This document shows positions 3,133-39,905 of a stretch of DNA of 51,807 nucleotides, one piece after another. The notes under the pieces were generated by a model that saw only the letters and a list, made by a program, of their open reading frames with translations, did no database searches and was not told the origin of the DNA. The position numbers and the translations under genes are program-made. The stretch comes from Gammaproteobacteria bacterium (GTDB lineage Bacteria; Pseudomonadota; Gammaproteobacteria; Xanthomonadales; Marinicellaceae): contig JAJRQG010000039.1 of NCBI GenBank assembly GCA_024280395.1, forward strand, positions 1-51,807. Reading direction: 5' to 3'. Numbering within the stretch: position 1 is the first letter of the stretch; every line of letters begins with the position of its first letter.

Positions 3133-4017
3133 ATGAAAAAATACCGAGTAATTTCGACACAAAAACAAACCGCCTTGGTTATTAATACCGAATCAGGTGT
3201 CCAACAAGCCTGTTTTTTTGCCCGCAAATTTAAACCCATTTGTGGTGATTATGTAGAGATTCAAATCAACAAAAATGAACACTTGATCACCAAAATACTT
3301 CCACAAAACAATGTCTTTTCACGCGCCAACCACAAAGGACAACGGCAAAATATCGCCGCCAATGTCGACAACCAAATCATTGTAGTTGCCGTTAAACCCG
3401 AACCGACCAGAGATTTAATCAATCGTTATTTGATTGCAGCACACCTGTGTGGCATGAAGCCAATCATTGTCTTTAATAAAAATGACATGGATAAAGACTT
3501 TTTCAATGAAACCAATGACTTATACCAATCATTGGGCTATACAACATTGTCCACCAATGCCAAAAACCAAACCAACTTTGATGAATTGATTGCGTTAATG
3601 ACCAACAAAACCTCTATTTTTGTCGGTATGTCAGGTGTAGGCAAATCCTCCATCAGCGAAATCATATTAAAACAACCCTTAAAAACGGGGGAAATCTCCA
3701 AGAAAACAGGCAAAGGTTCGCATGTGACCTCGGTTACCCACATGTATAAAATCCCCGATATTGAAGGATTCCTGATTGATTCACCAGGCGTATGGGAATA
3801 CGGACTGTGGAAAATGGACGAACACGATATTGCCGCGGGGTTCCCTGAAATTCAAGCTAAAATGGGGCATTGTAAATTTAGCAATTGTACACATACTCAT
3901 GAACCAGGTTGTGGTATTAAAGCAGCTGTTGAAAACAAAGAAATCAATCAATTGCGTTATAATTCTTATTTGAGAATCATAGATTCGATGAAGTATTGGG
4001 ATGAGAATAATTATTAA
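3133..4017 (+). CDS. rsgA: Ribosome small subunit-dependent GTPase A
   Basis: RsgA (YjeQ) of 294 residues, a late 30S maturation GTPase. It shows the circularly permuted G-motif order that defines the family: G4 NKND at 115-118, then the P-loop GMSGVGKSS at 165-173, then G3 DSPG near 217. An N-terminal OB-fold of about 70 residues precedes the GTPase, and a C-terminal zinc knuckle with CKFSNCTHTHEPGC follows. It is slightly shorter than the E. coli protein (350) because N- and C-terminal extensions are reduced. No strong ribosome binding site is visible before the ATG at 3133. Inverted-repeat elements flank it on both sides. Confidence 0.97.
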   Translation: MKKYRVISTQKQTALVINTESGVQQACFFARKFKPICGDYVEIQINKNEHLITKILPQNNVFSRANHKGQRQNIAANVDNQIIVVAVKPEPTRDLINRYLIAAHLCGMKPIIVFNKNDMDKDFFNETNDLYQSLGYTTLSTNAKNQTNFDELIALMTNKTSIFVGMSGVGKSSISEIILKQPLKTGEISKKTGKGSHVTSVTHMYKIPDIEGFLIDSPGVWEYGLWKMDEHDIAAGFPEIQAKMGHCKFSNCTHTHEPGCGIKAAVENKEINQLRYNSYLRIIDSMKYWDENNY

Positions 4018-8023: not shown

Positions 8024-11000
8024 CTATAAAACATCCGAAGGCGAAGTGCCATAAGTTTTTTTGAACTGTTTAGAAAAGTAGGACAAACTATCAAAACCAC
8101 AAGCATAAGCCGTTTCACTAACAGATAATTTTTTATGGGTTAACAAGTCCATAGCAAATTCCATGCGCACTTGACGAATATAGGATACCGGACTCATATT
8201 CAACTCAGCTTTGGTTTTTCTGTACAAACCAGAACGATCAAGATACATCAATTCGGCCAACGTTTCAACATTGAGGTTGCTGTCTGAAATATTGCCATGG
8301 ATGGTTTCATCCAACTTTTCTTGAAAACTCGATTTATTGTTTATTTCATTAGTTTGAAGTAAGATACTTTCATCACGAATGGCTTTTCTTGAAGCAATCA
8401 ATCGATCCACTCTGGCCTTTAGTTCATCAAAATCAAAAGGTTTTGTAACATAATCATCGGCACCAGTACCAAGACCCTCTATTGCATCGACATTGGCAGA
8501 CATTGCTGTTAACAAAACTATAGGAACCGTTTTGAGTTCTTTGTTGTTTCTTAAATGAGATAACAACTCCATACCATCCATTTCCGGCATCATAACATCA
8601 CTGATGATTAAATCGGGCAGGTGCTTAATTGCCATGTCTAAACCAACTCGACCATTCTCTGCTTCTAATACTTTATAATAGTCTTTGAACTTAAAGACCA
8701 AAAATTTTATTAATTCAGGATTGTCCTCAACAATTAAGATGGTTGTTTTATCAACATTATCGTGAAGTGGTTTTGCTTCTTCAATTGAAATTAGTTCACT
8801 GTTTTCCTTCTGTAGTACTGATTTTTCTTCAGAATCACGCAATTCATCGTATTCAAAATGTTTGAAGTCTTGTTTGAAACACAAAGTAAATGTACTGCCT
8901 TGGCTGGGATTACTACTCAATGTAACCCTACCATGATGCAGCTCCATCACATCTTTCACATAAGAAAGACCAATTCCAGTGCCTGCTTCTGATAAATGCT
9001 CTGGAGAATTGCCCTGAAAATAACGCTCAAATATTTGCTCCTGAATATCTTCACCAATACCTACTCCATCATCAGATATTTTTATTTTCACCGAGTCCTT
9101 ATCTTCTAACAAAGAAACAATAATTTTACTGTCCTTACCACTGTATTTTATCGCATTAGATATCAGATTAACGATGACTTTTTTAATTTCTCTCTTATCA
9201 CAATAAACATAAACATCTTGGTCATTGCTTTTTTCAAATATCAACGTTTGATAATGATCAAGAGACCAATTTATTAGCTTTTTAATAACCGAATAAATGA
9301 GCTCATTAAGATTGACTTTTGTAATTCTTAATGGAAATGTTTGTGCTTCAAGTTTCTGAATATCCAAAATTTTATCAACTAAATGTAATAAATCTTGGGC
9401 ATTTGACAAAGCAGTGTCTACCAAATATTTTCCACTGGTATTAAGGAAACCCCTTTGTTTGTGCAAATCTTTAAGCGGTGCAATAGTTAAAGTTAGCGGT
9501 GTTCTAAACTCATGTGACACATTGGCAAAAAATCGATCTTTTAACCGCATCACTTTGTCTTTTTTATCGGCTTGGGAAATAATATTCTTAGCATGTTTGG
9601 TAATTTGCTGTAATTGTTGGGATTCCATCAATGCCTTAATCGCCTTATCGATAAATGTTTTCAAGTCTCGAATCTCATCCGAGTTTAATTTTTTACCTTC
9701 CGTAACTTCTAATATTAAACATTCATTGTCACTTTTATCAAAATTATAATCTAACAAAACAGGAATAACGATAATTTGTACTTTCCTTAACGTGCTATTG
9801 TTTTTAATCTCTTCTGCTTTGACCATTTTTACCAAAGATTGATTAGAATCGCATGCCTGAAAAATTTCAACTTTATAGTTTTCAAAAAAAACATCTGCAT
9901 GATAAATATCGCTTTGCTGTACTAATATTAATTTATGGCACAAATCAACATCCAGACTTAATTTAGTAACATTCTCAATTGGTGCATATTTCAGTATCAT
10001 TTGTGCGAAATAACTCTCAATATGCTTAATAAAACTTTGCACCTTAGTTTCCTTGAATATTTCTTCTTTAATTTCATGTAGAAAATTTCCGACCAAAGAT
10101 TCGGCAAACAAAGCTTTTTGGGCTTTATCAAAACTGTTCTGAAATTTGTCTCTGGATTTTTTGTATCCCAGTGCTTGATCAGCCAAACCCAATGCCAAAA
10201 TAAAAGCCACAGCTGCCATTCCTACCTCGTAAGAATGTTGCATCCAAAATTGATTGGGTTGAATATTAAAAGCATAAGATAATCTAAAACTTGAAAACAC
10301 CAAGAAAACTATCCAAGCCACCAATAAAAACCCTGCTTGTCGATTGCCTTGTCTGTATTCTTTATAAGCAATAAATAAAACAAGAAGGTTTCCTATATGC
10401 ACAGTAGAATTGTAAAGGTAAGACATATAATTTAAATTCAACTCTAGGAAATGGCTAAAGACAATAACGATTATCAAAACCATCAAATACAATATCCAAC
10501 CAAAAATCCACTTGCCAAAAACCTGCTTCCTGTAATTTAATTTTAAAAATGAATAGAAAAATATAAACAACAATAGATTAGAAACTAAAAAGGCGAATAA
10601 ACCGGTGTTTTTCCCCAAAACTGGAAAATACAAGGATGGTAAATCTATCATTCTGCTTTCTTGCCAGTAAAAAGTCATCAGACCCGAAAGCATGTAAAAA
10701 GAGAACCAAATGTACGATTTATTCTTTATATAAAAATAATATATAAAATTAACCAGAAACAAGCCCAACAACGAAGAATATAAAAGCGTAAAAAATATAA
10801 CTAAGTTTTTATCATGAATAATATAGCTGTCTTTATCAATTAAACTAATCGACAGTGGTGATGATTTTCTGTTTTGAACAACAATGTAATGATTCTTGAT
10901 GTTTTGGCTCTGATAGTTAAATACAAACCTTTCTGAACTAAAAATTCGAGATGGTGATGGTTCAAGCCGAAATTGATTTTGTGGCTTCGTAAAATCACCT

Positions 11001-11317
11001 TGTTCATCCTGAGTCAAATAACTCACCTGATCAAGATACTTATGACCGATAACCAATACTTGTTCTGTGTTTATTGTTGCTTGATTCTTTAAGTTGACTT
11101 TAAAAATAACAGTAGAGCCTTCTACAACAAAATTAATTTTTTGTTGTTTATAGGGCACAAATTTTAAGTTTTTTAATAATGAATTATCGGTAAAATTCTT
11201 CTGTGCTATTTCCGAATAATAGATTTCTAGATTTTTATCACCATCTGGCAATGAATAATATTTACAACCACTGAGCATACTCAACAATAAAATTAACAGG
11301 CATCTATTCATTCTCAA
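8024..11317 (-). CDS. One-protein hybrid two-component system: 7TM sensor kinase, receiver, AraC domain
   Basis: Protein of 1097 residues. It begins with a lipoprotein-type signal (LSMLSGC, cysteine at 18). An extracytoplasmic beta-rich domain at about 30-165 resembles 7TMR-DISMED2 and is followed by seven hydrophobic segments (about 170-385). A linker/GAF-like region leads to HisKA with FFANVSHEFRTPL (phospho-histidine near 602) and an ATPase domain with NLISNAIKYSG, DDGVGIG and GTGIGLSYV. A receiver follows (IVEDN; SDVMMPEMDG, aspartate near 907; KPFDFDEL), and an AraC-type HTH occupies the last 100 residues. Signal sensing, phosphorelay and DNA binding are thus in one chain, as in Bacteroidetes hybrid systems. 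Its start is 3 bp from the stop of the DMT transporter and it is followed by ltaE. Target genes and ligand are unknown; the operon may be its own target. Confidence 0.92.
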   Translation of the reverse strand: MRMNRCLLILLLSMLSGCKYYSLPDGDKNLEIYYSEIAQKNFTDNSLLKNLKFVPYKQQKINFVVEGSTVIFKVNLKNQATINTEQVLVIGHKYLDQVSYLTQDEQGDFTKPQNQFRLEPSPSRIFSSERFVFNYQSQNIKNHYIVVQNRKSSPLSISLIDKDSYIIHDKNLVIFFTLLYSSLLGLFLVNFIYYFYIKNKSYIWFSFYMLSGLMTFYWQESRMIDLPSLYFPVLGKNTGLFAFLVSNLLLFIFFYSFLKLNYRKQVFGKWIFGWILYLMVLIIVIVFSHFLELNLNYMSYLYNSTVHIGNLLVLFIAYKEYRQGNRQAGFLLVAWIVFLVFSSFRLSYAFNIQPNQFWMQHSYEVGMAAVAFILALGLADQALGYKKSRDKFQNSFDKAQKALFAESLVGNFLHEIKEEIFKETKVQSFIKHIESYFAQMILKYAPIENVTKLSLDVDLCHKLILVQQSDIYHADVFFENYKVEIFQACDSNQSLVKMVKAEEIKNNSTLRKVQIIVIPVLLDYNFDKSDNECLILEVTEGKKLNSDEIRDLKTFIDKAIKALMESQQLQQITKHAKNIISQADKKDKVMRLKDRFFANVSHEFRTPLTLTIAPLKDLHKQRGFLNTSGKYLVDTALSNAQDLLHLVDKILDIQKLEAQTFPLRITKVNLNELIYSVIKKLINWSLDHYQTLIFEKSNDQDVYVYCDKREIKKVIVNLISNAIKYSGKDSKIIVSLLEDKDSVKIKISDDGVGIGEDIQEQIFERYFQGNSPEHLSEAGTGIGLSYVKDVMELHHGRVTLSSNPSQGSTFTLCFKQDFKHFEYDELRDSEEKSVLQKENSELISIEEAKPLHDNVDKTTILIVEDNPELIKFLVFKFKDYYKVLEAENGRVGLDMAIKHLPDLIISDVMMPEMDGMELLSHLRNNKELKTVPIVLLTAMSANVDAIEGLGTGADDYVTKPFDFDELKARVDRLIASRKAIRDESILLQTNEINNKSSFQEKLDETIHGNISDSNLNVETLAELMYLDRSGLYRKTKAELNMSPVSYIRQVRMEFAMDLLTHKKLSVSETAYACGFDSLSYFSKQFKKTYGTSPSDVL

Positions 11318-15044: not shown

Positions 15045-15338
15045 ATGGTTAATTCTAAGCTGATATTTGACAACATAAACAATAAAAATTTTCAAATTGA
15101 GTTTGAAGATAACTTACCCATAAAATGTGAACTAATTGAAGTTAAAGGCATTAATTCATCCACTTTAAAAAAAGGCCAAAGCGAACCTTTTTCTTTGGTA
15201 TTCCAATCAAAAGAACAAAGGGTTTTTGAGCAAAATACTTATAAATTAACCCACTCTGAATTGAATGATTTGGCTTTATTCCTTGTACCAATTGGCTCCG
15301 ATGATATTGGTGTTAGATACGAAGCTGTATTTACTTAA
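15045..15338 (+). CDS. DUF6916-like small protein
   Basis: Protein of 97 residues without a signal peptide. The pattern QSEPFSLVFQSKEQ, then NTYKLTHSELNDLALFLVPI, then GVRYEAVFT at the C-terminus is that of the DUF6916 domain, small proteins typically found beside phage-tail-collar (MdpB-like) proteins. No enzymatic motif is visible. It lies on the strand opposite to the collar genes but next to them, with its own -10 and a Fur-box-like palindrome. A second, exported protein of the same pattern is at 15849-16196. Function unknown; a role in assembling or anchoring the collar proteins is inference from recurrent association. Confidence 0.75.
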   Translation: MVNSKLIFDNINNKNFQIEFEDNLPIKCELIEVKGINSSTLKKGQSEPFSLVFQSKEQRVFEQNTYKLTHSELNDLALFLVPIGSDDIGVRYEAVFT

Positions 15339-15364
15339 AAATTTTAATAAGTTCCTAATAATAA

Positions 15365-15856
15365 TCATTCTGGAGAATACTCCATATATTGATAAACGCC
15401 TTTATCTTCAACTTGTTTAAATCCATGTTTTAAATACCATTGATACGCTGGATTATAGTTTTCCACATGAATAACTATCTTTTTTTGGGTATTGTTAGCT
15501 TCCTGTATGATGACTTTTAATATTTTTGTACCCATTCCCTTATATTTAAACTCAGGCAATAAGGCGATATCAATTAAGCAAATTGATGTTTCATCTCTAT
15601 CTATATAGATTCGACCTATGTTTTCTTGAGATTGTTTGATTACTAGATAATCCGCATTTTGATAATGAGATTGATAATGCGTGTGTTGTGCTTCAAATTG
15701 TTGCTTGAGGAAATCGAGTCGCTGTTGGTCACTCCAAGGCGCTTGTTGTACTTCTTGCCACCGAGTTGATGAATAAAGTGTTAAAAGAAAAGCCATATCA
15801 TTCTCTGATATGGCTTTAAAATTTAATCCTTCAACATTTAAGCCTATTTTAGGCAT
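15365..15856 (-). CDS. GNAT-family N-acetyltransferase
   Basis: Protein of 163 residues with the GNAT fold: an N-terminal substrate region (SENDMAFLLTLYSSTRWQE), strand beta-4 (ICLIDIALLPEFKYKGMGTK) carrying the acetyl-CoA pyrophosphate loop K-x-x-G-M-G, and VENYNPAYQWYLKHGFKQV near the C-terminus. It acetylates an amine using acetyl-CoA; target unknown. It overlaps the stop of the exported DUF6916-like gene by 8 bp and is last in the collar-gene unit, so it is co-expressed with three tail-collar proteins. That linkage suggests it modifies one of them, but this is inference. Confidence 0.88.
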   Translation of the reverse strand: MPKIGLNVEGLNFKAISENDMAFLLTLYSSTRWQEVQQAPWSDQQRLDFLKQQFEAQHTHYQSHYQNADYLVIKQSQENIGRIYIDRDETSICLIDIALLPEFKYKGMGTKILKVIIQEANNTQKKIVIHVENYNPAYQWYLKHGFKQVEDKGVYQYMEYSPE

Positions 15857-16196
15857 TCAATCGCCAATTAAATACGGCTTGCAGTTGATTGTTGTCAATA
15901 GGAGTCATATAAACTTGATATGTTTGACCATTTGCAGTTTTTAAGGAGTAGATTTTTTCTTCAAGTGGATTCGCACTGTTCTCAACACCATAAGTCAGGA
16001 TAAATTGCTTTTCATCCCTGTTTTTCAACGGATGGATTTTCTGATTTAATTTGAGTTTCAACCCACCTTCAGATGTTACATTGTTGTTCTTCAATAAATC
16101 ATGAATGGGGGACTGCTTAGCCACAGTTACACCAACAGGTAAACTTGCGATGCCTAAAGTTGTGATAACTGCTTGAGTAAAGTTTCTTCTTTTCAT
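15849..16196 (-). CDS. Exported DUF6916-like protein with twin-arginine-type signal
   Basis: Protein of 115 residues from ATG 16196. The N-terminus MKRRNFTQAV has two arginines and a phenylalanine before a hydrophobic segment, as in Tat signals, so export in folded form is likely. The mature part has the DUF6916 pattern: a strand-rich body (KQFILTYGVE, IYSLKTANGQTYQVYMTPI) ending LQAVFNWRLNA. It starts 4 bp after the stop of the first-encoded upstream collar gene (16201) and overlaps the GNAT gene by 8 bp. It pairs with the signal-less homologue at 15045, giving one cytosolic and one exported member. Confidence 0.7.
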   Translation of the reverse strand: MKRRNFTQAVITTLGIASLPVGVTVAKQSPIHDLLKNNNVTSEGGLKLKLNQKIHPLKNRDEKQFILTYGVENSANPLEEKIYSLKTANGQTYQVYMTPIDNNQLQAVFNWRLNA

Positions 16197-16200
16197 AATA

Positions 16201-16722
16201 TTAACCCCTAGATGGATATAAGCCTTGTAAGGCAATAATATAATTAATGGCCAGATAAGGTTGCATATTGTTATGAGGAAGTCCGCCACCAGTAGTTGAT
16301 AATGAATTTGCATCCATGGCAACATTGTTGGTGGCATCATCAGTATAAGCACCTAATCCTACTCCTCTTGCTACAAATTTATCCAAAGGATCATCATCAT
16401 TAGCAGGAGTAACGTAACTTTCCCAACTGTGATTGTGAGATGGTATTTGAGCTTCGGTTAAGGTATCACTTTCTACTCCTCCAATCTGTCCAAGTCTTCT
16501 TTGAGTAAGTCCTGGTCCTGTGCCTGGATGCATGGCCGCTTTACCTTGTAAATTTGGCAACGCAGTTGTAGTACGTCCATCTCCTCCATAAGTTGTACCA
16601 ATTAAAGAAAATAAGGCTGTATTTTGAGAGACAGGTAGTAATTGTCCATCACAAAAAGCCCAACTTCTGGGTGCAAAGTTCCCTGCGAATATTCTAATTT
16701 CTGCTACAAATGGTTCTGACAT
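16201..16722 (-). CDS. Phage-tail-collar-domain (MdpB-like) protein 1
   Basis: Protein of 173 residues from ATG 16722 (MSEPFVAEIRIFAGNFAPRS), chosen because it matches both paralogues and has an AGGAG site eight bases upstream. Family landmarks: WAFCDGQLLPVSQN, TTYGGDGRTTTALPNLQGK, IPSHNHSWE and HNNMQPYLAINYIIALQG. The collar fold trimerises in phage tail fibres; the HxH pair can bind metal. Chromosomal homologues (microcystin-dependent protein family) have no established function. There is no signal peptide. It is third and most downstream of the three collar genes and is followed by the Tat DUF6916-like gene. Confidence 0.88.
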   Translation of the reverse strand: MSEPFVAEIRIFAGNFAPRSWAFCDGQLLPVSQNTALFSLIGTTYGGDGRTTTALPNLQGKAAMHPGTGPGLTQRRLGQIGGVESDTLTEAQIPSHNHSWESYVTPANDDDPLDKFVARGVGLGAYTDDATNNVAMDANSLSTTGGGLPHNNMQPYLAINYIIALQGLYPSRG

Positions 16723-16732
16723 AATGGCTCTC

Positions 16733-17251
16733 CTAACTACGTGATGGGTAAATGCCGAAAAGGGCAATGATATAATGCACACATAAAAATGGCATCAGAT
16801 TAGAATGAGAACGACTACCACCAGTATCGGTTATAGCCGATGCATTCATACTCTGTTGCCCACCAGTGGCCCGATACAAACTTGCACCTGTGACTTTTGC
16901 AAGTACTTTACCCGATGCGGTTGTACTGTCTGCTGCTGCACTGCTAGCGGTTAATGTATGGCTATGAGATGGCAATTGATTGGTGGTTAAAGTTACATTT
17001 TCTGCCCCCCCTTTGGTGCCAAGTCTTCTTGCAGACAAACCTGGCCCAATTCCAGCATGAATAGGTATCCGACCTCTAACATCTGGCAGGCCAAAGGTTG
17101 TTCTACCATCGCCTCCATAAATGGTACCTAAAAGGCTGAAAAGGGCATCATTTTGTGATACGGCAAGCAATTGTCCATCACAAAAAGCCCATCCACGAGG
17201 AGCAAAATTGCCCGCAAACATACGGATTTCTCCGACAAATGGTTCTGACAT
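16733..17251 (-). CDS. Phage-tail-collar-domain (MdpB-like) protein 2
   Basis: Protein of 172 residues, paralogous to its neighbours throughout. It has NFAPRGWAFCDGQLLAVSQN, the IYGGDGRTTFGLPDVRGR loop, LPSHSHTLTASSAAADS (HxH at the same position) and HSNLMPFLCVHYIIALFG. The central variable region differs most from the other copies, which would put sequence diversity on the exposed face of the fold (inference). CAGGAGAAA precedes its ATG. Gaps of 10 and 18 bp to the flanking collar genes indicate a single transcript. Confidence 0.88.
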   Translation of the reverse strand: MSEPFVGEIRMFAGNFAPRGWAFCDGQLLAVSQNDALFSLLGTIYGGDGRTTFGLPDVRGRIPIHAGIGPGLSARRLGTKGGAENVTLTTNQLPSHSHTLTASSAAADSTTASGKVLAKVTGASLYRATGGQQSMNASAITDTGGSRSHSNLMPFLCVHYIIALFGIYPSRS

Positions 17252-17269
17252 AATATTTCTCCTGTTTCA

Positions 17270-17770
17270 TTAATTCCGTGAAGGGAATAAACCCCGTAAT
17301 GCAATACAATAATTCAATGCAATATACGGTTGCATATTTTCATGTGCTTGACCACCACCTGCGTTTGCTAAAGAACCTGCTTTCATGTCGACGACATTGT
17401 CTCTAATTCTATAGGCTTCCAATGAAGTTTTTGATAACAGGTTTCCAGCAGGTATGGGTTGATTTGCAGCTGCTGAAGATGCCTGAGCAGTATGCGTATG
17501 CACGGGCATTTCTGTTGCATTGACAGTGTGCGTCTCTTCACCCGATTTTTGCCCTTGCTGATGGCCATTGCCAACATGTATTGGTGTTCGACTTCTCATT
17601 TCGGGCAATGCAAAGCTTGTACGCCCATCACCCCCGTAAGTTGTGCCCAATAATGAATAAAGGCTTTGATTCTGATTAATAGGCAATATTTGCCCATCAC
17701 AAAATGCCCACCCTCTTGGTGCAAAGTTAAAGCCGACTATTCTTATTTCGGCTAAAAATGGTTCTGACAT
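17270..17770 (-). CDS. Phage-tail-collar-domain (MdpB-like) protein 3
   Basis: Protein of 166 residues, first of the three collar genes in the direction of transcription. It carries NFAPRGWAFCDGQILPINQN, TTYGGDGRTSFALPEMRSR, MPVHTHTAQASSAAANQ and HENMQPYIALNYCIALRG. GAGGAGAATG precedes the ATG. It has a shorter middle (a GHQQGQKSGEETH stretch replaces the LxxRRLG turn of the others). The 129-bp gap to the giant exported-protein gene upstream contains an inverted repeat at 17830-17887, so the collar genes may be transcribed together with it or separately. Confidence 0.88.
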   Translation of the reverse strand: MSEPFLAEIRIVGFNFAPRGWAFCDGQILPINQNQSLYSLLGTTYGGDGRTSFALPEMRSRTPIHVGNGHQQGQKSGEETHTVNATEMPVHTHTAQASSAAANQPIPAGNLLSKTSLEAYRIRDNVVDMKAGSLANAGGGQAHENMQPYIALNYCIALRGLFPSRN

Positions 17771-17829
17771 AATTCATTCTCCTCATTATTTTAGTGGTTA
17801 TTTTCCATTCGTAATAGCAATTGACTGTA

Positions 17830-17887
17830 TTGAGTAATAAAGTGTCCTCATAGAAACTTGCCCAAATTATTAAGACACATTACTCAA
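17830..17887 (-). other. Inverted repeat between giant gene and collar genes
   Basis: TTGAGTAAT at 17830-17838 pairs with ATTACTCAA at 17879-17887, extended by GTGTC/GACAC after a 3-nt bulge. It lies just after the stop of the giant gene and before the first collar gene. No T-run follows on the minus strand, so it is more likely an attenuating or mRNA-stabilising structure than a strong terminator. Confidence 0.4.
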
Positions 17888-17899
17888 ATTTACCATCAC

Positions 17900-20800
17900 T
17901 TATGGTACCGCTGGCGTATTACATGCTGGTGTTGTTGTATAATTGACAAACCCAGTAAATCCTGATTGTGCACTTGATAGTGGCATTGAAAGAGGGTTAA
18001 GCCCATCAATAAACGCCTCAACTTGTGCACCAATAGTCCCAGTACCTGAAAAGCCTTCCAGTATATATGTGGTGTTAAGGTATTGAGACAAACCAATCCC
18101 AGGGAATAATCCTGAGTCCCCATCGATATCATTGCCTGAAAGGTCCAAACACAATGTATCCGCTTCTCCTGCCGTACCATTGCCTGATTCAATTATAGAT
18201 CCATCGATGAAACTCCCTACACTTGCGGTAAATGTATTGTTAGTTAATTGAATGTCCATACGTCCTTGAGAACCTCGAGCCTGTATTGTCATGGGGTATA
18301 AATCTGCCGCATCTGTACAGTTATTATTATCAAATGTCCCTCTAAATATGGGATTATCGCTCACTATATTGCCATCATTAATTATGAATTTGCAACTGAC
18401 TCCAAAAAATGATTCATTGATGACTTGCATGGTTACTCTTGCTGCTGCAAATGTCACATTTGAACCTCCATTAGATTCACCCACCAGTGCTGCTGAATTA
18501 TCCACTTGCATAATCATACTATCACTTAAATCAATATTGGCAACACCTGTACCATCTCCAACTACTGATACACCTAAAGTACCTATACCATCAATGTCTG
18601 CATTTGTAATAGCACCGCTAATACTTCCTCCTTGTCCAGGTGCACCTACGTCTATACTTATTCCTCTGCCATCAAAATTTCGAATAAATATATTTGACAG
18701 TGTCATAGAAGTAACTGTAGCACCTGAACCTATATTAAAATCCAATGCCGCACCAGCAAAATTATTGCCTGCGGCAGAGTTATATACACCACCTGGGAAG
18801 TCGCCTATGCCTTCAAATTGAGAATTGTTTATGGTTACAGTTGCCAGTGTTTGAGCACTGGTATAATTCAATTCAATACCATCATCTGCAGCATTTTCTA
18901 TTATTGAATTGTTAAAGATAAATGAACCAGATTGATCAAATGCTTCAATGGCACTTTCATTGTCTGCATTTCCAATATTAACCAGCCTTAGAAAATTTGC
19001 ATTAAACCCATTGACTCTTGTCATAGTAATAGCTTCAGCAGAGGTATTTTGGATAGTTCCTCCACTACAAAATGTAATTGCAAGTGTGCAGAGGCCACCA
19101 CTTCCTGTTATATTAAAACTACCTAAACCTGTATTGTTTAATACGATACCGCTAGTTGCACCATTTACTGAAACATTTTGGAATGTCACATCTGAAGCCC
19201 CAATATTTGAACCAGATATGGTTACTGCAGTGCCTGTAGTTGATGTGATGGTGTTGGTTCCTGTGGCATTAATTGTCCCACCATTGGTTGCTAAAAATGC
19301 ATTTCCACTGGTGGTTGTAATGGCCAGTCCGCCAGTTAGATTGACAGCTCCATGATTGTCCAAATTTATGGCTGTAGCAGTACTGGTGCCAGCTGAAATC
19401 ATCCCACTAATGGTGGTTGTTCCACCTGTATTATTTAACACCCTGAGAGCAGTTGCAGTATTGTTTTGAGTAATGGTTCCCGAATAATTTACTGTACCAG
19501 AACTGCTGGAAACACTCATTGTAGGTTGTGGTGAGCCAGAACCTGTACCTGTTACACTTCCACCGTTTATGTTTATGGTCGCCCCATCATTGTTGGACAA
19601 TGCAATGGCGGAACTTAGAGAACCCAAGTTGTCAATTACCACACTCGCAATAGTGATCATACTTCCTGCAGTGACAGCATTGTCTATTCCCAGTGCTGTG
19701 GTATTACTTGAGTTAGGGTTAGCAATTGTAATGACTCCAAAAGATCCCATTTGCTGACCTCCTGTAAAAGCATTGATAAAAACACCTGCACTATTTCGGT
19801 TTGTGATAGTGACATTCCCAAAGCTATAACTTGCACCTACATTTGAAATATTCACGCCTATTCCTGCTGCATTATCTACAGTGGTTAAGCCTGACACAGT
19901 AAAACTACCAGCTGAAACAAGGCTTAAATCAACGCCCTCAGATGCACTGTTTGCAGAATCAATTGAATCTAAAGTAACGTTAACAGTCCCTGTGGTTAAA
20001 TCAACGGCTTTGCCTGTCCCTGTTAATGCCATATTATTGATAGTAAGCAAACCAAAATTATTTCCCAGTAGTTTTGTAACAGCATTGCCTATATTAAAGC
20101 CTTTAAGTGCATTGCCTGATGATAAATTAATAGCCGTTGTTCCACTGGTGATTTCTGGACGTATTCCACCTGTAGTTGGTAGTGCCGTGCTATTGGCTGC
20201 CAGAAAAACAATGCCACATTCAGCAGCAATTGTGGTGCTTGATCCTTTACCAATGACTATTTGATTAGGAATTAAACTCAATGGCCCTGTGTAATTTCCA
20301 GCATCTAAAAATATACAATCTCCAAATGATGGGTCTCCTTGCATTCCGCCATTTTGCTGTGCCATAAATGCCCCTATCGAATTAAATGGGGTTGTTAATC
20401 TTCCATCTCCAGCAGTCATTGAATTGACAATGAACCATGAGGTCGTTCCAGAAAGATTAAATGTAACGTTAATATCAGCACTACATTGTGTTGCATTACA
20501 GATTTTATACACAAAAGTATCTGTTCCTGTATCAAGACCAGCAGGCGGATTATAGGTGAACGCACCTGTGGATGTGGTTATGCTTAAGTTTCCACCACCT
20601 GACGTCATTGTTGGTGCTGGATTCATGGCATTACCAACAGCCAAAGTTCCTGTTCCTGTTGCACCATTTAATAGACCTGATACTGTTGGCGTATTGATCT
20701 GTATATTGGTTGTTACGGGATAACTCGAATCTGCCTTGGCAGGAGGTGGGTTAAGTATAGTAATGGTAAATGATTGATTGGCAGAAGTATCAACACCACC

Positions 20801-23113
20801 ATTAGCCGTACCACCATTATCCATGATATTAAGAGTAACAGTTGCACTTCCATTAACTCCCATAGCTGAAGTAAAACTTAAATCACCCATGCCATTCACA
20901 CTGGGTTGGGTACTAAACAAAGCATTGTTGTTATTGCTCACATTGAAACTTAAAGTTTGCCCTGATTCATTGGCAGGACCTGCCGATATTGGAGTGGCCC
21001 AAGTAGTGATAGTATGTGCACCTGTGTCTTGATTAAAAGTTTGATCGGCTCCCTTGGTGAAAGAAGGAACATCATTGACTTGATTCAGTGTTATGGTAAA
21101 CATCTGACCTGTAGAAGTATCTGATCCGCCATTTGCCGTCCCGCCATTATCCATAATATTAACCGTCACTGTTACTACACCCACTGCATCAGCGGCTGGT
21201 GTAAATGACAATTGTCCAGTATTGCTAATAGATGGAGCAGATAAAAATAAGCCTGGTGCTGTATTACCAGAAATATTCAGACTCAAAGTTTGCGCTGATT
21301 CATCACTTGGTCCAGCCGATAAGCTACTCGCCCAAGCTTGTGAATAAGCACCTGAATCTTCAAGCACACCAATATTGCCACCACTGGTAAAACTGGGTGT
21401 ATCATTTACCGCAGTAACTGTGATAGTAAACATTTGAGTAGCTGAAGTATCAACACCACCATTAGCCGTACCACCATCGTCCATAATACCGACAATGACA
21501 GTTGCACTCCCATTTGCATTGGTCATTGGAGTATAGCTTAATGTCCCAGCAGAACTGACAGATGGTTGAGTGCTGAATAATCCATTATTGTTATTACTGA
21601 CATTAAAACTAAGCACTTGTCCTGATTCGCTGGCAGGACCTGCAGATAAGGCTGTTGCCCATCCTGCAACCGATTGTACACCTGCATCTTCTAATACCGT
21701 TTCATCTGCTCCTTTAGTAAAGGACGGAACATCATTCACATCAGTAATGATAATGTCAAAAGTAATGTTTGCAGAGGTATCAACTCCACCATTAGCCGTT
21801 CCTCCATCATCCATAATGTTAATTGTTACGGTAGCTGTTCCCGCGGCATCAGCTGCAGGTGTAAAACTTAAATTTCCAGCCACATCAACCACAGGAGCAG
21901 ATGAAAATAATGTTGAGTTCGTCACACTGACGATATTAAAACTGGTTGATTGCGCATTTTCATCAGTAGGGCCTGCTGCAATGGCTGTAGCCCACAACAT
22001 TGAGTAAGCAGCAGAGTCTTCTAAAACCGTCACGTCACCACCACTGGTAAAAGTAGGTGCATCATTGACAGGATCCACTGTAATACTAACAGTTGCAGGT
22101 GCGGAATTAGCTTGACCATCATTGGCTACATAAGTGAAGCTATCATTGCCAACAAAATCTACATTTGGTGTATATATTAGACTAGCAGAAGTTGTATTGA
22201 TAGGAGTCACTACAGATACAGAGCCATTAGGTGGAGGAGTTGCCACACTAAAAGTCAATGCATCACCATCTAAGTCAGCACCTGATAAAGTTATCATCAA
22301 TGGTGTTTCTTCAAATATATTACCCGCCATAACATCCGTAGCAGTAGGAGCTTGATTTTCCACATCAACAACATCGATTCGTGCGGTAAACAAATCTTGT
22401 TCTAAATTTCCAAAAACTTGAGTAATATCAGAAAAACTCCCAGGCCCAGAATTATCTCCCGTCGGATCATTAATGGCAGTAAAACTACTCCAGTCACTTA
22501 CGTCTCCATCAACAATAAAAGTAAACATGCCCCACACAACAGTAGAGAACAACATAACAGAGGCTAAAATGAGTACTTTGTTTTTATAAGCTTTGCGAGC
22601 AACAATAAAGACAATCAAGGTTAACAACAACAAAGACAACAATGAAAAGGTTGGTATAGGAAATGCAACCCCAAAAAATATCCCGCCACCACTGTTATTA
22701 ACTATAACAATATCAGATGATGTTACTGACTCAGAGGTATAATATAATTTCACTGAAGTAGAGGAACGAATACCCAAATCAGAAGTATTCATTTGCATCT
22801 CAAAAACATCATCTCCATTGGTATTCGCATTTAAGCCCAATGCAGATGTAACAATGGCACTGCCAGCATCAAAACCAGCACCTGTACAGTCAAAGTACAA
22901 TGAACTGCTAATAGCAATTGGTGAGCCGCTGGTTTCAATGGAAAGATATCCATCAACCCCATCAAATTGCGTCATAAAATCAGGTTGGAGAACAGTACAA
23001 CCAGTGGCCATATTGTTGTCAATATCGATATAAACGTTGTAAGTCTTCTGTTGAGCTTGTGAAAAACCCGAACAAAACACAAACAATAACACTATGACAT
23101 TCTTGATACTCAC
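17900..23113 (-). CDS. Giant exported protein: IPTL-like segment, cadherin-type repeats, beta-helix-like region
   Basis: The preferred start is GTG at 23113, seven bases after AGGGG, giving 1737 residues; an ATG 57 bp upstream has no ribosome binding site and would spoil the signal peptide. Signal peptide 1-20 ends FSQA. Residues 21-150 are strand-rich. PIPTFSLLSLLLL at about 152 with a hydrophobic stretch and RKAYKNK resembles an IPTL-CTERM sorting tripartite signal, but is followed by a second hydrophobic segment and 1500 further residues. Next come a VDGDVSDWSSF segment, a cadherin-like domain (about 255-350), four 110-residue repeats (about 350-790), another strand domain, and a long beta-helix-like Ser/Thr/Asn/Gly-rich region to the C-terminus. 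It is probably surface-anchored or secreted and adhesive. It is upstream of three collar-protein genes on the same strand. Confidence 0.85.
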   Translation of the reverse strand: MSIKNVIVLLFVFCSGFSQAQQKTYNVYIDIDNNMATGCTVLQPDFMTQFDGVDGYLSIETSGSPIAISSSLYFDCTGAGFDAGSAIVTSALGLNANTNGDDVFEMQMNTSDLGIRSSTSVKLYYTSESVTSSDIVIVNNSGGGIFFGVAFPIPTFSLLSLLLLTLIVFIVARKAYKNKVLILASVMLFSTVVWGMFTFIVDGDVSDWSSFTAINDPTGDNSGPGSFSDITQVFGNLEQDLFTARIDVVDVENQAPTATDVMAGNIFEETPLMITLSGADLDGDALTFSVATPPPNGSVSVVTPINTTSASLIYTPNVDFVGNDSFTYVANDGQANSAPATVSITVDPVNDAPTFTSGGDVTVLEDSAAYSMLWATAIAAGPTDENAQSTSFNIVSVTNSTLFSSAPVVDVAGNLSFTPAADAAGTATVTINIMDDGGTANGGVDTSANITFDIIITDVNDVPSFTKGADETVLEDAGVQSVAGWATALSAGPASESGQVLSFNVSNNNNGLFSTQPSVSSAGTLSYTPMTNANGSATVIVGIMDDGGTANGGVDTSATQMFTITVTAVNDTPSFTSGGNIGVLEDSGAYSQAWASSLSAGPSDESAQTLSLNISGNTAPGLFLSAPSISNTGQLSFTPAADAVGVVTVTVNIMDNGGTANGGSDTSTGQMFTITLNQVNDVPSFTKGADQTFNQDTGAHTITTWATPISAGPANESGQTLSFNVSNNNNALFSTQPSVNGMGDLSFTSAMGVNGSATVTLNIMDNGGTANGGVDTSANQSFTITILNPPPAKADSSYPVTTNIQINTPTVSGLLNGATGTGTLAVGNAMNPAPTMTSGGGNLSITTSTGAFTYNPPAGLDTGTDTFVYKICNATQCSADINVTFNLSGTTSWFIVNSMTAGDGRLTTPFNSIGAFMAQQNGGMQGDPSFGDCIFLDAGNYTGPLSLIPNQIVIGKGSSTTIAAECGIVFLAANSTALPTTGGIRPEITSGTTAINLSSGNALKGFNIGNAVTKLLGNNFGLLTINNMALTGTGKAVDLTTGTVNVTLDSIDSANSASEGVDLSLVSAGSFTVSGLTTVDNAAGIGVNISNVGASYSFGNVTITNRNSAGVFINAFTGGQQMGSFGVITIANPNSSNTTALGIDNAVTAGSMITIASVVIDNLGSLSSAIALSNNDGATININGGSVTGTGSGSPQPTMSVSSSSGTVNYSGTITQNNTATALRVLNNTGGTTTISGMISAGTSTATAINLDNHGAVNLTGGLAITTTSGNAFLATNGGTINATGTNTITSTTGTAVTISGSNIGASDVTFQNVSVNGATSGIVLNNTGLGSFNITGSGGLCTLAITFCSGGTIQNTSAEAITMTRVNGFNANFLRLVNIGNADNESAIEAFDQSGSFIFNNSIIENAADDGIELNYTSAQTLATVTINNSQFEGIGDFPGGVYNSAAGNNFAGAALDFNIGSGATVTSMTLSNIFIRNFDGRGISIDVGAPGQGGSISGAITNADIDGIGTLGVSVVGDGTGVANIDLSDSMIMQVDNSAALVGESNGGSNVTFAAARVTMQVINESFFGVSCKFIINDGNIVSDNPIFRGTFDNNNCTDAADLYPMTIQARGSQGRMDIQLTNNTFTASVGSFIDGSIIESGNGTAGEADTLCLDLSGNDIDGDSGLFPGIGLSQYLNTTYILEGFSGTGTIGAQVEAFIDGLNPLSMPLSSAQSGFTGFVNYTTTPACNTPAVP
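20760..22080 (-). repeat. Four tandem 330-bp coding repeats
   Basis: Equivalent sites such as the CCACCATTAT-type motif recur at 20811, 21141, 21471 and 21801, exactly 330 bp apart, encoding 110-residue repeats. Each repeat carries VLEDSG-like, SAGPxxESxQ, and MDDGGTANGGVDTS-like segments. DNA identity between copies is high in the last segment, so unequal recombination could change copy number. Confidence 0.9.
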
Positions 23114-24394: not shown

Positions 24395-24654
24395 AATCTT
24401 ACAACAAAATCAGAACTTTGCCACTGATTGTATTAACAGGTTTTTATAAAATAGTCTTTTTTAAGGATAAAATCATGACTTTACCAAGGAAACAACTCAT
24501 ATCCATCGAAGATACACCTTATTACCATATCGTCACTCGATGCGTTCGTAGAGCCTTCTTATGTGGCAAAGACAAATACTCTGGCAAGTGTTTTGAACAC
24601 CGCCGACAACTGATTGTTGATCGGATAAAACAACTGGCTGAAGTATTCAATATT

Positions 24655-24725
24655 ATGATTTACATCCCTGTAAATCCCACTTCGTGCCGCCTTCAGCGTT
24701 CAAATTTGATCCTGTCAAAATTAGT
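24655..24725. repeat. 71-bp palindrome-rich insert 1 in the RAYT gene
   Basis: It lies exactly between the codons for FNI and DVC, shifting the frame by two. It contains the hairpins TTTACA-TCCC-TGTAAA (24659-24674) and TTTGA/TCAAA (24705-24719), and the motif CATCCCTG. No stop-free homologous protein is encoded. It resembles a REP or similar small palindromic element. Confidence 0.7.
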
Positions 24726-24802
24726 GATGTCTGTGCCTATGCCGTAATGAGTAATCACTACCATCTTGTTTTGAAGGTCAATTCAACCGAACTCTGGGAT
24801 GA

Positions 24803-24877
24803 AAAATTCTTCTGGAAAGAATTTTCACGCAAGCCTTCATGGATGAAGGTGAAGCTCAGGGATGAGCTGAATAAAAA
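24803..24877. repeat. Palindrome-rich insert 2 in the RAYT gene
   Basis: Hairpins AAAATTCTT/AAGAATTTT (24803-24825), CCTTCAT/ATGAAGG (24834-24849) and GCTCA/TGAGC (24854-24867) follow each other. Its reverse complement carries CATCCCTG, then CTTC, GCGT, AAATT and TTCC blocks in the same order as insert 1, so it appears to be a diverged copy of the same element in the opposite orientation. The right boundary is approximate. Confidence 0.6.
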
Positions 24878-25552
24878 AGGGTGTTAATTAACTGGTCATC
24901 AATTTCAGGAATCATACCACTTTGCCAACGGTTTCTAGCGGGTGAGCATTTATCAAATCCTGAGCTAAACATGGTATACCTAAAAACAGCTGAATACCGT
25001 AAACGATTAATGTGTATCAGTAACTTCATGCAACTATTAAATCAATACATTGCAAGGCAAGCCAATATTGAAGATGGAGTAAAGGGTTGTTTTTGGGAAT
25101 CTCGCTTCAAGAGTCAAGCATTGCTTGATGAACGAGCTTTATTGACTTGTATGGCATACGTAGATTTAAACCCGATTCGTGCTGCAATGGCACAGGCTCC
25201 AGAGGATTCAGATTACACATCAATCCAAGAGCGAATCAATAGCAAGAAAAGTACTCTATTAAACCTAGGTTTCGGAGAAGATGATATTCCTTTTGGACTT
25301 GGCGATTATTGTGCGTTAGTTGATTTAACTGGACGAGCCATTATTGCCAATAAGCGTGGTTATATACCCGAAGAATTGCCACCTATTTTAAACAGACTCA
25401 ACCTTAATTCAACTACTTGGCTGGATGAATTAAATCAATTCAAAACCAAGGGCCATACTGCCGTTGGAACAGTTCAACAACTCAAAGATTTTTGCAAGTC
25501 TGTGAGCAAGAAATGGCGAACTGGAATTCAACTTAATCCAGCTTTAGAATAG

Positions 25553-34365: not shown

Positions 34366-37300
34366 TTATTCGATAATAATTCTATGCCAACTTCTACGAC
34401 TCCATCGACTTGTACGGTTCAAAGTTATTTGTGTTCCACTTCCTGTAATACCAGAACCTGATAAGTCAAGATTCAAGAAAGATTGACCACCTCCAGGAAG
34501 AGTTAAATAGTTAAACCCAAGTACTAAATCATTAACCAAAAATCCATCTGAATTTCCAAAATCAAAGAAACTACCTTGTGATGGAGCTCCCCCTGATTTA
34601 CCATCGATAATCATTACCCAACTTTTACCACCTGATAAACATGGATCGCCTGCATTTGGAATAATTGACGCAATTGTTAATAATTTTTCGTTGTTATTTC
34701 TACCTAGAAAACTTACTATTCTTTCGCCAGAAACGGGCAGTTTGATTTTCCAACTCTGAGTGGTATTTACACTTTTAGACGTTAGAGTACGCTTGTCTAA
34801 ATTTGTTGATATAAACTGCTCTACTAGTCTTGTGTCATTGATGTTATATGTAGTAACCATTTGACGTGAATCTTTTAAACCAACGACATATTGATTCAAT
34901 GGTTTAGCAACCCTATCTCCCAGTTCTAAATATTTTCCTGTGCCAAAAGCTACAATAACATTTTCTGTCCCGTCTTCAGGGGTTAAGATTCGTGGAGCAG
35001 TTGTGATGGCTTGATTTCGATTGCCAGAGAATAACAATTCTGGTTTGCTACTTAACGTACTTGTAAATATCTTCTGCATATCAAACCGATATACATTACC
35101 TGCCAAATCTCCTGCATATGCATAATCTGTACCTAGATCTGATTCATATTTTGGATTTAATGGATTTCCATCATAATTTACAAAATCTGCTGCTGCTGGA
35201 GGGCCCATTCCATTTGGGTTTTGTAAATTTCCAACATTATAATTCCATTTATGTAACAAATTACCAGTAGCCATATCTACTGCATATAATACTGATTGCT
35301 GATTATTGCTATTATAACCATTGGGAATCAATGCTATCCATTTTGAATCAGCTGTTGAGCTTTGATTAACTACCCTTGTAATTAACCCTCTTCCATATGA
35401 ATAACCCATATCATCTGGCTCATCTAAATCTGAAAACTCCCAAAGCACCTTTGGTTCTAAACTTGGTTTATTACCCATATCCAATGCATAATAAGATTTA
35501 CCACCTTTTCTTAATGAACCCAGTACTACTGTACTCCATTGGCCATTGATGTAAGCATCTCTTACATAGGGTGATGCATCTACAAAAGATTTATGGTTGT
35601 ATTGTGGGTTTGCTAATTCGGATATCCCATCTAGACTTGCATATGGTATATATGCCCATAACTCATCACCACCAGAAATAATGCTTTCTAAACCCGTATC
35701 AAATGCATGCAACATCCCATCATTTGCACCTGCCAACACAACACTTTTTCTGTCTTTATTGGTGTTTTTAAATTCCGTATAACCATTTCCTAGATCAGCA
35801 GCAAGCCTTTCTGGAGATGAGGCACCCCATAAGTTGTCATCATAACTTGCAGATGGTCCTCTTATGATTTCTGCCTTTGCATGTATGATATCACCGAGCA
35901 AACTTTTTCGATCCCTAAAATTACCACCATTTTGATTTTCTAAAAGCTTGTCTCCCCTAATGTAATGAATAAAATCGTCTAATGTTACAGAATTATTGAT
36001 TGCTACATTTTTATAGTAATCTGAGTTTAAAATTCTTGCAGTTTCAGTAGTTGACATTTCAACAGTATGAAATGGATGCTGAGTGTTTGTGACTTTATCA
36101 TACGTAAAAATATTTCTTGTTGAATGATTCCTAGATGCGGATACAAAAGTGTTATTCATTGATGCGCATAATCCACCAGTTAATTTGCAATTTGCATCCC
36201 ATTGCACGCTACCCAAACTTCCATCAGTATTAAGAGGCGCTGCTATTAAGAATCCACTCCAATCAGAGGTATCAAAGCCGGTTCTAAATGTTAATGAACT
36301 CGAAGATATAATACTTGATGAATTGCTACCAGCACTGGCGCGTCCTTTACGTTTAATTATATTTGCAACAATTTTATACAAGGACCTGGATAACTCAATT
36401 GGATCTTTAGCACTAAAATATTCACCCCTGCTATTCACTGATGCATGCCAGACATCATCAATTTTATTAATTTCTCCAAAAATTCTACTTTGTATCCTGT
36501 CAGAACAGTTGATTTGAAAAAATTGTGTCCCATTTGCATTTAATCTATAGCAAACAACTATTTGATTATCTGGCAAAAGGCAATTTTGAACAGAATATTG
36601 ATTATTATTATTGCTGTAACACAGTTCATATTCGCATTGTATTTCATTTTGATTTGTATCAAAACACACATCTGCAATGCTTGGCCACTGGAGTGTGCCA
36701 TTTCTTAACTTGGGTAAATCTGTATTTTGATCAAGTGATCCTTGAACACCAAGCCCAATATTAAAATTAACCATGTGCTGCCACGAAGCAGGGTCATTTT
36801 TTGGATTCCAAAATAGTTCATTATTAGCCCACCAATCTTGATTACTGGGTATATTTACAATATTACCATTCGAATCTGTATAATCTTCTATAAATACTGG
36901 GACATTATTATCTGAGTTAGCCCTTAAATCATTAGACCAATATTCAAATGCAATATCGGACAATGAACCTTTATCAACGCCCACATACATCTTACTTGGT
37001 AACGTATTCGGGTTGTAAATTTGTATACTCCCATCTGGTAATGCAGGTAATTCTATAGTTGAAGAATCAACATTTCCAATGGGGGTGTCAGCACCGTTCC
37101 AAGACCCATCAGAGATAGCAATATGGAAATTTTGTTGGCAAGATAACTCTTTACCAGAGTTTGAATCTAAGTAAACACTTTTTAATTTGAATATCTCTCC
37201 TGCTTTGACTGTTGCATTCCTCAAAGGCGTTCCTCCACTTGATGGAATACCATATAGCCAGTCAAAGAAATCTTTTCTGTGTTTGCCATCAAAAACTTGC

Positions 37301-38028: not shown

Positions 38029-38040
38029 AATTTAACTCCT

Positions 38041-38604: not shown

Positions 38605-38618
38605 TTCCTAATTCCTGT

Positions 38619-39887: not shown

Positions 39888-39905
39888 ATTTAAAATCCAT
39901 AGTCT

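Follow-up and report, generated by a model that had tools for sequence, protein, structure and literature searches.

In the gp37 and gp12 proteins and in pyocin fibers, HxH motifs bind one metal that is common to three chains (PMC6116203, PMC3004832). Outside phages, RhiB has been reported to contain a collar domain (PMC13133039), and the exoproteome of Ruegeria pomeroyi included a PF07484 protein (PMC4949626), which may or may not belong to a trio of the type described below. RhiA was also considered as evidence for secretion and was rejected, since the pertinent part of the source calls this protein cytoplasmic (PMC2275737). In Acaryochloris, AM1_3684 and 3686-3690 are among the 35 most induced genes in low far-red light; three of these six genes are annotated as "phage tail collar," one as an acetyltransferase, and two as hypothetical (PMC11633204). 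The literature searched, with preprints and most subscription journals outside its scope, contained no published description of these genes as a cassette and neither the name DUF6916 nor a description of its function; the sections seen of PMC3174227 and PMC4727817 held nothing helpful on the cassette. The annotated records examined label the genes singly, as "tail fiber protein," GNAT, or hypothetical protein, so that the cassette is easily dismissed as phage debris.

The window, i.e., the whole stretch of DNA that was analyzed, comprises 51,807 nucleotides of a gammaproteobacterial contig (JAJRQG010000039.1). The locus consists of the following genes.

17900 to 23113, minus strand: giant exported protein, 1,737 amino acids, GTG start; signal peptide and Big_9/cadherin repeats
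17270 to 17770, minus strand: C1, collar protein, 166 amino acids, HxH; PF07484, 94.4 bits; tree group C1
16733 to 17251, minus strand: C2, collar protein, 172 amino acids, HxH; PF07484, 102.1 bits
16201 to 16722, minus strand: C3, collar protein, 173 amino acids, HxH; PF07484, 92.8 bits (two extra residues in the scored version)
15849 to 16196, minus strand: DT, DUF6916-like protein with a Tat signal (KRRNFT), 115 amino acids; PF21880, 22.9 bits, under the cut-off
15365 to 15856, minus strand: GNAT acetyltransferase, 163 amino acids; Acetyltransf_10, 4.8e-10
15045 to 15338, plus strand: DC, signal-less DUF6916 protein, 97 amino acids; PF21880, 81.4 bits

The preliminary description had recognized three collar paralogs downstream of the exported protein of 1,737 residues, and both statements hold: C1, C2, and C3 all score far above the PF07484 cut-off of 24 bits, the start of C3 lies at 16722, and the giant protein contains Big_9/Cadherin repeats. 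The Acetyltransf_10 match makes the identity of the GNAT clear; the start of its gene overlaps the stop of DT. DC is a clear member of PF21880 (cut-off, 27 bits), as had been proposed, whereas its supposed divergent orientation was wrong, the DC and GNAT genes being convergent. DT misses the same cut-off and is thus termed DUF6916-like rather than a family member; the homology itself is upheld by the comparison of the DT and DUF6916 family profiles (hhalign probability, 94.6).

This arrangement is a cassette that recurs across phyla, with three distinct collars, a GNAT, and DUF6916, often accompanied by a Tat-signal protein and a giant repeat protein. Among 249 Pseudomonadota genomes, DUF6916 was detected in 33, collars in 66, and both in 32. 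Collars were thus present in 32 of the 33 genomes with DUF6916 versus 34 of the 216 others, a co-occurrence far beyond chance (Fisher p = 9e-21, uncorrected for kinship), and 35 of 38 DUF6916 sites were located less than 8 kb from a collar gene. The 32 collar clusters near DUF6916 comprised 10 of one, 2 of two, and 20 of three collars; given the 10 single-collar cassettes, the trio is not obligatory. Exactly three collars were found in 86 of 112 collar-bearing genomes of the order to which the window belongs. We also compiled named collar loci, 56 of 80 of which had exactly three collars together with GNAT and DUF6916 somewhere in the locus; since only the top 80 were taken from at least 590 C2 matches, canonical loci are over-represented among them. 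Some genomes occur twice in the material, once among these named loci and once outside them (e.g., G207/L080, G193/L066, and G223/L114). Named loci with all three components came from Proteobacteria, Acidobacteriota, Bacteroidota, Chloroflexota, Planctomycetota, Actinomycetota, Verrucomicrobiota, and Cyanobacteria. In Deinococcus and Paenibacillus, three collars and GNAT were present on plasmids, with DUF6916 not detected.

As a whole, the data best fit a bacterial cassette that has been domesticated, is widely shared, and produces a collar knob outside the cell, and we consider this explanation probable, if by a modest measure. We infer the assembly, export, and target of the knob as follows. 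(i) C1, C2, and C3 would join at a ratio of 1:1:1 in a single knitted, pseudo-threefold knob that is probably metal centered, its six histidines forming a shared metal site. (ii) GNAT and the signal-less DC may act on the trimer in the cytoplasm by modification, assembly, or holding. (iii) Since the trimer would already be folded round a metal at the time of export and itself lacks a signal, it may exit the cytoplasm in the folded state, hitch-hiking with the Tat-signal DUF6916 escort. (iv) Outside, the knob would be displayed with the giant repeat protein, or cap it, and the product would be either an adhesin on the surface or a binding complex that is secreted; the variable middle segment of the collars would provide the binding surface. 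The strictest form of this proposal, namely, an obligate, pan-bacterial, metal-centered 1:1:1 ring of phage-derived collars that forms in the cytoplasm, is checked or modified by GNAT and DUF6916, hitch-hikes through Tat, and crowns the giant as a tunable tip, is doubtful. The "dedicated, non-phage surface or secreted assembly" initially suggested draws support from the co-occurrence, the neighborhood across phyla, the recurrent giant, and the anchored fusions described below.

The predicted structure of DC is confident (pLDDT, 92.5), with six strands and a short helix. For DUF6916, a sequence search of the PDB yielded no relative at E ≤ 1, and a fold search against the PDB and viral models yielded no match at E ≤ 0.001; head-tail connector-like barrels among the weak matches (E > 0.001) were not believed. 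The twin arginine of DT is invariant in 14 members of its family. To score Tat-like signals we used a heuristic made here, which at high-GC loci also counts ORFs that overlap or are spurious and takes near ORFs from the same strand only but far ORFs from both strands. On this basis, signals were about 5-fold enriched in the cassette, at 18 of 319 near versus 6 of 578 far ORFs in the order/class loci (p 8e-5) and 25 of 969 versus 11 of 2,250 in the named loci (p 1e-6). However, 15 of the 18 order/class matches are DT orthologs of one family, and no more than 24 of the 80 named loci yielded a signal; together with the strand mismatch, this makes the statistics soft and a Tat escort not general. 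There is a real chance that the same secreted or surface complex leaves by another route, with no role for Tat and with DUF6916 as a chaperone or assembly factor. The low number of named loci with a signal fits this reading, as does the finding that the DUF6916 matches without a Tat-like signal far outnumber those with one in these loci; the 5-fold enrichment argues against it, as do seven Tat-signal cassette proteins from several phyla that proved to be DUF6916 homologs.

A first line of evidence for the proposed 1:1:1 knob is the relationship among the collars. The C2 sequence matches T4 gp12 (1OCY; E 2e-6 with the C2 profile) and the phage fiber 8KEC, and at the sequence level the collar trio and the collar of this T4 short tail fiber protein are homologous. 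HxH was present in all three proteins at 89 of 91 trio loci, a set that includes some genomes more than once; at the other 2, the third collar gene is cut at the contig end. The middle segment is the most variable, as had been noted from the window: across 58 C2 proteins, mean column identity was 0.83 for residues 1 to 67, 0.49 for residues 68 to 138, and 0.69 for residues 139 to 172. C1, C2, and C3 formed separate groups in both a 79-row tree, which lost eight collar proteins to a motif filter (one C1 and seven C2, of which six have WMFC and one has WSLC), and a 192-protein tree, which left out the 17 of 80 named loci without exactly three same-strand collars. The larger tree required 6 label changes versus 90.6 in shuffles; since the labels came from HMMs built in this analysis, labels by gene position alone served as a second test (21 changes versus 89.6). 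The gene order was C1-C2-C3 in 57 of 66 same-strand trios. By these trees, C1, C2, and C3 represent three old lineages that have been kept together over phyla. The AlphaFold monomer model of C2 was poor (pLDDT, 51) and was kept out of the fold search; it would be compatible with an intertwined trimer, of which it is no proof.

Single-chain versions provide a second line of evidence, the strongest of the new findings. In one family (f203, 119 genomes), all five multi-collar ORFs hold exactly three collar domains, arranged in the circularly permuted order C-N-C-N-C-N, as would be possible in a closed ring of three parts. These single chains combine three collars and a ring-like permutation with anchor or RTX domains. 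Pfam assigned PEP-CTERM to the triple fusion L144 and RTX to L145; by eye, L247 and L248 end in PEP-CTERM-like segments and L249 has RTX-like repeats. The RTX-type fusions are without HxH, so that the metal is not needed everywhere. Compared with the C1, C2, and C3 profiles, 9 of 10 fusion domains fitted C2 or C3 best with no clear sorting, and the triple fusions are therefore not simple fusions of this trio. Two two-domain fusions (L146 and L147), both in genome G325, each lie beside a third collar gene.

It is unlikely, in our view, that the operon instead encodes three separate homotrimeric knobs of differing specificities and no heterotrimer. Single-collar cassettes (10 of 32 clusters), the HxH kept in each collar protein, and the description of phage fibers as symmetric trimers (PMC3004832, PMC6116203) would fit such an arrangement, but it leaves unaccounted for a collar copy number of one or three and rarely two, the cohesion of the three lineages over phyla, and the ring-permuted chains of exactly three domains.

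In 43 cassette GNATs, residues R32, E35, Q53, Q57, and Y61 are invariant. Four solved relatives reached E ≤ 1e-8, three of which bear the name N-terminal or N-alpha-acetyltransferase, and the RimI model scored 36 bits, far under its cut-off of 86. The enzyme may modify the assembly, as the preliminary description had suggested; L146, a collar-collar-GNAT fusion, ties it to the collars and does not thereby reveal the substrate. N-terminal acetylation of all three collars was considered as the task of the GNAT and is weakened by this fusion: its second collar is internal and lacks a free N-terminus, and acetylation of every collar N-terminus therefore cannot be the general task.

The N-terminal part of the giant consists of a signal peptide, an N-terminal domain, and an IPTL-CTERM-like segment (amino acids 151 to 179, by eye), followed by a second signal-like segment at about amino acids 180 to 197 and tandem Big_9/cadherin repeats; the C-terminal part is beta-helix-like (by eye) and ends ..C..P. 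Big_9 was matched, and the tandem-95 model remained below its cut-off. Orthologs have a similar N-terminus. PF18203 (IPTL-CTERM) gave no match at E ≤ 1 in the giant of the window and 20.4 bits (cut-off, 20.8) at residues 180 to 205 in an acidobacterial ortholog (L069). Processing by an exosortase was rejected, since exosortase (PF09721) was not found in the window genome. The exporter varies by host, with an autotransporter in L065 and a T9SS tail in L115 and L142. A large repeat-rich neighbor recurred in 34 of the 46 named loci with enough flank, judged by a composition test for repeat proteins, again a heuristic made here, in which ORFs that overlap or are spurious are counted too at high-GC loci; the other 12 were without one, as was the family member L040.

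These neighbors bear on where the collars act. Inspection of the sequences revealed no signal peptide in C1, C2, or C3, as would be expected if the collars worked inside the cell, e.g., as a regulator or as a decoy for phages, and only happened to lie in a surface-gene island. Such a role is nevertheless quite improbable, since fused collar versions carry a signal-like N-terminus and PEP-CTERM, or RTX repeats, Tat-signal and giant exported partners recur, and one homolog was found in an exoproteome (PMC4949626).

A phage or contractile-tail origin was examined in several ways. Consistent with the preliminary description, no capsid, portal, lysis, or integrase families, and likewise no sheath, tube, or baseplate families, were found among the 30 proteins scanned, 20 of them from the flanks, and the window genome had no tail-sheath match. 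A sheath gene was located within 15 kb of 0 of 32 DUF6916-linked collar clusters versus 8 of 48 other clusters, all 8 being single collars; anywhere in the genome, sheath genes occurred in 10 of 33 DUF6916 genomes versus 38 of 216 others (p 0.1). The flanks consist of housekeeping genes, and the gene order of the cassette is conserved. The 310 matching phage records were all less than 60% identical (best among the matches listed, about 40%). Of 78 viral-catalogue loci, none had DUF6916 and 8 had at least three collars, which were accompanied by GNAT in 2 cases. A degraded prophage or tailocin, or the tip for a contractile system whose genes lie elsewhere, is thus hardly tenable, even though the collars match phage tail families and some viral loci carry several collars. 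In Acaryochloris strain MU13, the genes induced along with the collars include one for a tail sheath and one for a baseplate, both with other locus tags (PMC11633204), so that the collars may be tied to a contractile system there.

If the extracellular knob is correct, bacteria share an undescribed extracellular machine that was built from the receptor-binding tip of a phage. Thanks to the permuted triple fusions, a single purified protein would suffice to test the closed three-part ring, and the cassette gives DUF6916 a setting. Three known systems can be compared. (i) T4 gp12 (PDB 1OCY and 5IV5) shares the collar domain and the HxH motif, whereas the cassette is without fiber shaft or baseplate, has GNAT and DUF6916 as partners, and uses three distinct genes or one triple-domain chain. 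(ii) The "microcystin-dependent" or RhiB-type collar proteins are likewise bacterial PF07484 proteins outside phages, but the passages of text seen on them mention no trio, DUF6916, or GNAT. (iii) Tailocins and contractile injection systems likewise put components of phage tails to new use; in contrast to these, the cassette reuses the collar in a genome without a sheath match, with no tube, baseplate, or lysis protein among those scanned.

The locus lies on one entire contig, the 51.8-kb window, of a genome of 3.77 Mb (99% complete, 158 contigs), and its genes are arranged as follows.

17900-23113, minus strand, giant exported repeat protein of 1737 residues
17270-17770, minus strand, C1, small collar protein (PF07484), 129 bp after the giant gene
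16733-17251, minus strand, C2, small collar protein
16201-16722, minus strand, C3, small collar protein
15849-16196, minus strand, DT, DUF6916-like protein with a Tat signal
15365-15856, minus strand, GNAT, overlapping DT
15045-15338, plus strand, DC, signal-less DUF6916 protein (PF21880), convergent with the GNAT gene

Since the gaps C1-C2, C2-C3, and C3-DT measure 18, 10, and 4 bp and the DT and GNAT genes overlap, C1 through GNAT look like a single operon. The flanks scanned with Pfam are housekeeping (RsgA, RlmJ, IleRS, MurJ, LytB, thymidylate synthase, and others). Elsewhere in the window, type IV pilus assembly genes (34366-40924; PilY1 and PilW by Pfam) adjoin ileS and lytB/ispH, and 8024-11317 encodes a hybrid sensor kinase that combines 7TMR-DISM and receiver domains with an HTH of AraC type; a large protein occupies the equivalent position downstream of the cassette in L034, L035, and L066, a likeness of position alone. 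The gene at 24418-25552 is apparently split and presumably resembles a REP-associated transposase; Pfam gave no match on 24881-25552, a part of it.

The set of collars, GNAT, and DUF6916 is a recurrent cassette. (i) Collars were present in 35 of 61 genomes (the window's own and 60 relatives), with exactly three matches in 29 of the 35. (ii) Our own HMMs were applied to 26 loci (L032-L057) drawn from the genus, family, and order. GNAT was found in all 26 and collar ORFs labeled C1, C2, and C3 in 24, the deviating loci being L053 (C3-C2-C3) and L054 (two C2). DUF6916 was recognized in 21, once by a weak match of 22 bits; of the five loci without it, three sit at contig ends. (iii) In the window's own family, which includes Marinicella, all 15 loci contained C1, C2, C3, DT, and GNAT, 12 contained DC, and 14 contained the giant, which is missing in L040. 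(iv) Collars occurred in 112 of 248 genomes of the order (E <= 1e-10), numbering three in 86, one in 15, four in 7, two in 2, five in 1, and six in 1. (v) Among 249 Pseudomonadota genomes, 33 had DUF6916, 66 had collars, and 32 had both (Fisher p 9e-21, kinship ignored). DUF6916 sites lay less than 8 kb from a collar in 35 of 38 cases, the exceptions being G306 (without a collar), G286 (46 kb away), and one site in G349; the clusters near DUF6916 comprised three collars in 20 cases, one in 10, and two in 2 (n = 32). In the class sample, DUF6916 was present in 5 of 185 genomes.

A scan of named genomes with C2 gave at least 590 matches; the 80 best were retained, and all counts of named loci refer to these. 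These included Acidobacteriota, Alpha-, Beta-, and Gammaproteobacteria, Chloroflexota, Bacteroidota, Planctomycetota, Actinomycetota, Verrucomicrobiota, Cyanobacteria, and others, with up to 76% identity to the window's C2. Three collars with GNAT and DUF6916 were found within the fetched stretch in 56 of the 80; 2 had six collars and 6 had fewer, each with both partners, and 16 lacked GNAT and/or DUF6916, some contigs being short. Plasmid-borne sets of three "tail fiber protein" genes, each with a GNAT nearby, occur in Ruegeria, Deinococcus, Paenibacillus, and Comamonas, and a Hymenobacter plasmid carries one collar only. Some alphaproteobacterial trios have an extra protein of ~400 residues between C3 and GNAT (L065 11115-12338, L071 11148-12341, L083 3263-4483, L164 8126-9343); that of L065, the one scanned, matched no Pfam family. 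Periplasmic-binding-protein-like genes lie inside other cassettes (L088 11127-12401, L121 7549-8814, L166 7081-8241), those of L088 and L121 with Tat-like signals.

The three collars form separate lineages. Grouping into C1, C2, and C3 required 4 label changes on a tree of 79 collars (minimum possible, 2; shuffled mean, 37.3). On a 192-collar tree over phyla it required 6 with HMM labels (shuffled, 90.6) and 21 with labels from gene position alone (shuffled, 89.6). The order C1-C2-C3 was kept in 57 of 66 same-strand trios. The cassette has likely spread horizontally because, on the 192-collar tree, in which few close kin were included, the nearest rows by path are Acidobacteriota and Actinomycetota for the window's C1 and Tritonibacter, Chloroflexota, and Acidobacteriota for its C2.

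The cassette is not part of a contractile tail. The window genome has no tail-sheath match and no PF07484 match beyond C1-C3. A sheath match was found in 48 of the 249 Pseudomonadota genomes (10 of 33 with DUF6916 versus 38 of 216 others; p 0.1, kinship ignored), and none of the 32 DUF6916-linked clusters had a sheath gene within 15 kb. Of the clusters not near DUF6916, 8 of 48 did, all single collars, as expected for genuine tail genes. The 310 C2 matches in phage records were all less than 60% identical. None of 78 viral-catalogue loci had DUF6916. A single collar ORF was present in 61 of them; 2 had two, 8 had at least three, and in 7 no collar ORF passed our threshold. Of the eight contigs with three or more, six are shorter than 11 kb and two have GNAT. 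One catalogue-assigned viral contig (2848685470_000004, 5.5 kb; L174 1-5456) contains nine consecutive collar ORFs, apparently three tandem trios.

We infer that C1, C2, and C3 would assemble as a heterotrimer. By sequence, the closest solved proteins are two phage fibers: a long tail fiber and gp12, the short tail fiber of T4. The chains of gp12 are described as "knitted" around metal on the threefold axis, and metal sites of gp37 and pyocin fibers as formed by the HxH motifs of three chains (PMC3004832, PMC6116203). HxH is kept in all three paralogues at 89 of 91 trio loci, the third gene of the other two being cut at a contig end. In f203, a family of the same phylum in which 23 of 119 genomes have collars, all five ORFs that match the collar more than once (L144, L145, L247, L248, L249; five genera) have exactly three matches. 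A profile built on the C-terminal 34 residues of the collar (C-part) matches both ahead of the first N-part and between the domains but nowhere after the third, so that the fusions read C-N-C-N-C-N, a permutation that a closed three-part ring would allow; a single one of these matches, at 2.6 bits in L145, is weak. L163, also of f203, is a weaker sixth case, with one N-part at 3.7 bits. L144, L247, and L248 have HxH in all three domains and a PEP-CTERM end, recognized by Pfam in L144 and by eye in L247 and L248. The other two contain RTX repeats (L145 by Pfam, L249 by eye) and, by reading, no HxH. Outside f203, genome G325 encodes L146 and L147, fusions of two collars apiece; next to each lies a separate gene for a third collar. 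In f203, six single collar genes follow one another at L250 4500-8586, with no GNAT or DUF6916 matches.

Collar fusions with anchor or secretion-type domains point to an extracellular setting, and a Ruegeria pomeroyi collar protein, whose trio membership is not established there, was detected in the exoproteome (PMC4949626). A Tat-like signal was present within 2.5 kb at 18 of the 30 order/class loci, in 15 cases on a DT orthologue, and at 24 of the 80 named loci. Such signals were commoner near the cassette, where only same-strand ORFs were counted, than in distant ORFs. Seven of the proteins bearing them, spread over several phyla, are homologous to DUF6916 (A7 versus DUF6916, 99.3%). A signal-less trimer folded around metal would suit export by Tat hitch-hiking. 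The GNATs of the cassette make up a conserved subfamily, whose closest PDB relatives are annotated N-terminal acetyltransferases; in L146 the enzyme and two collars share one chain.

Of the 80 named loci, 51 had a large repeat-type protein no more than 3.5 kb away; for the 46 loci flanked by more than 4.5 kb on each side, the count was 34. ORFs of at least 800 residues were of repeat type in 41 of 62 cases near the cassette and in 5 of 22 far from it. The exporter differs: L065 has an autotransporter barrel, and both L115 and L142 have T9SS tails. Pfam gave no match for the giant of L161. By eye, intact giants of the order share a signal peptide, a small domain, an IPTL-like segment with basic residues, a second signal-like segment, and then repeats. 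In the window this IPTL-CTERM-like segment and second signal-like segment lie at 22490-22663, as though one exported protein had been joined to another. The Acidobacteriota orthologue L069 has this layout too, its IPTL motif barely below the cutoff. Exosortase had no match in the window genome.

In Acaryochloris, AM1_3684 and AM1_3686-3690, annotated as three "phage tail collar" proteins, one acetyltransferase, and two hypotheticals, belong to the 35 genes with the strongest induction under low far-red light, and orthologues of four of the six are likewise listed for strain MU13, whose list also has a tail-sheath and a baseplate gene at other tags (PMC11633204). From gene names and neighboring tags, we infer that the six represent a cassette of this kind. 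We found no description of this collar-GNAT-DUF6916 system in the literature searched, a limited library. PF07484, DUF6916, and GNAT are already known domains; what is new, within that literature, is the system as a whole.
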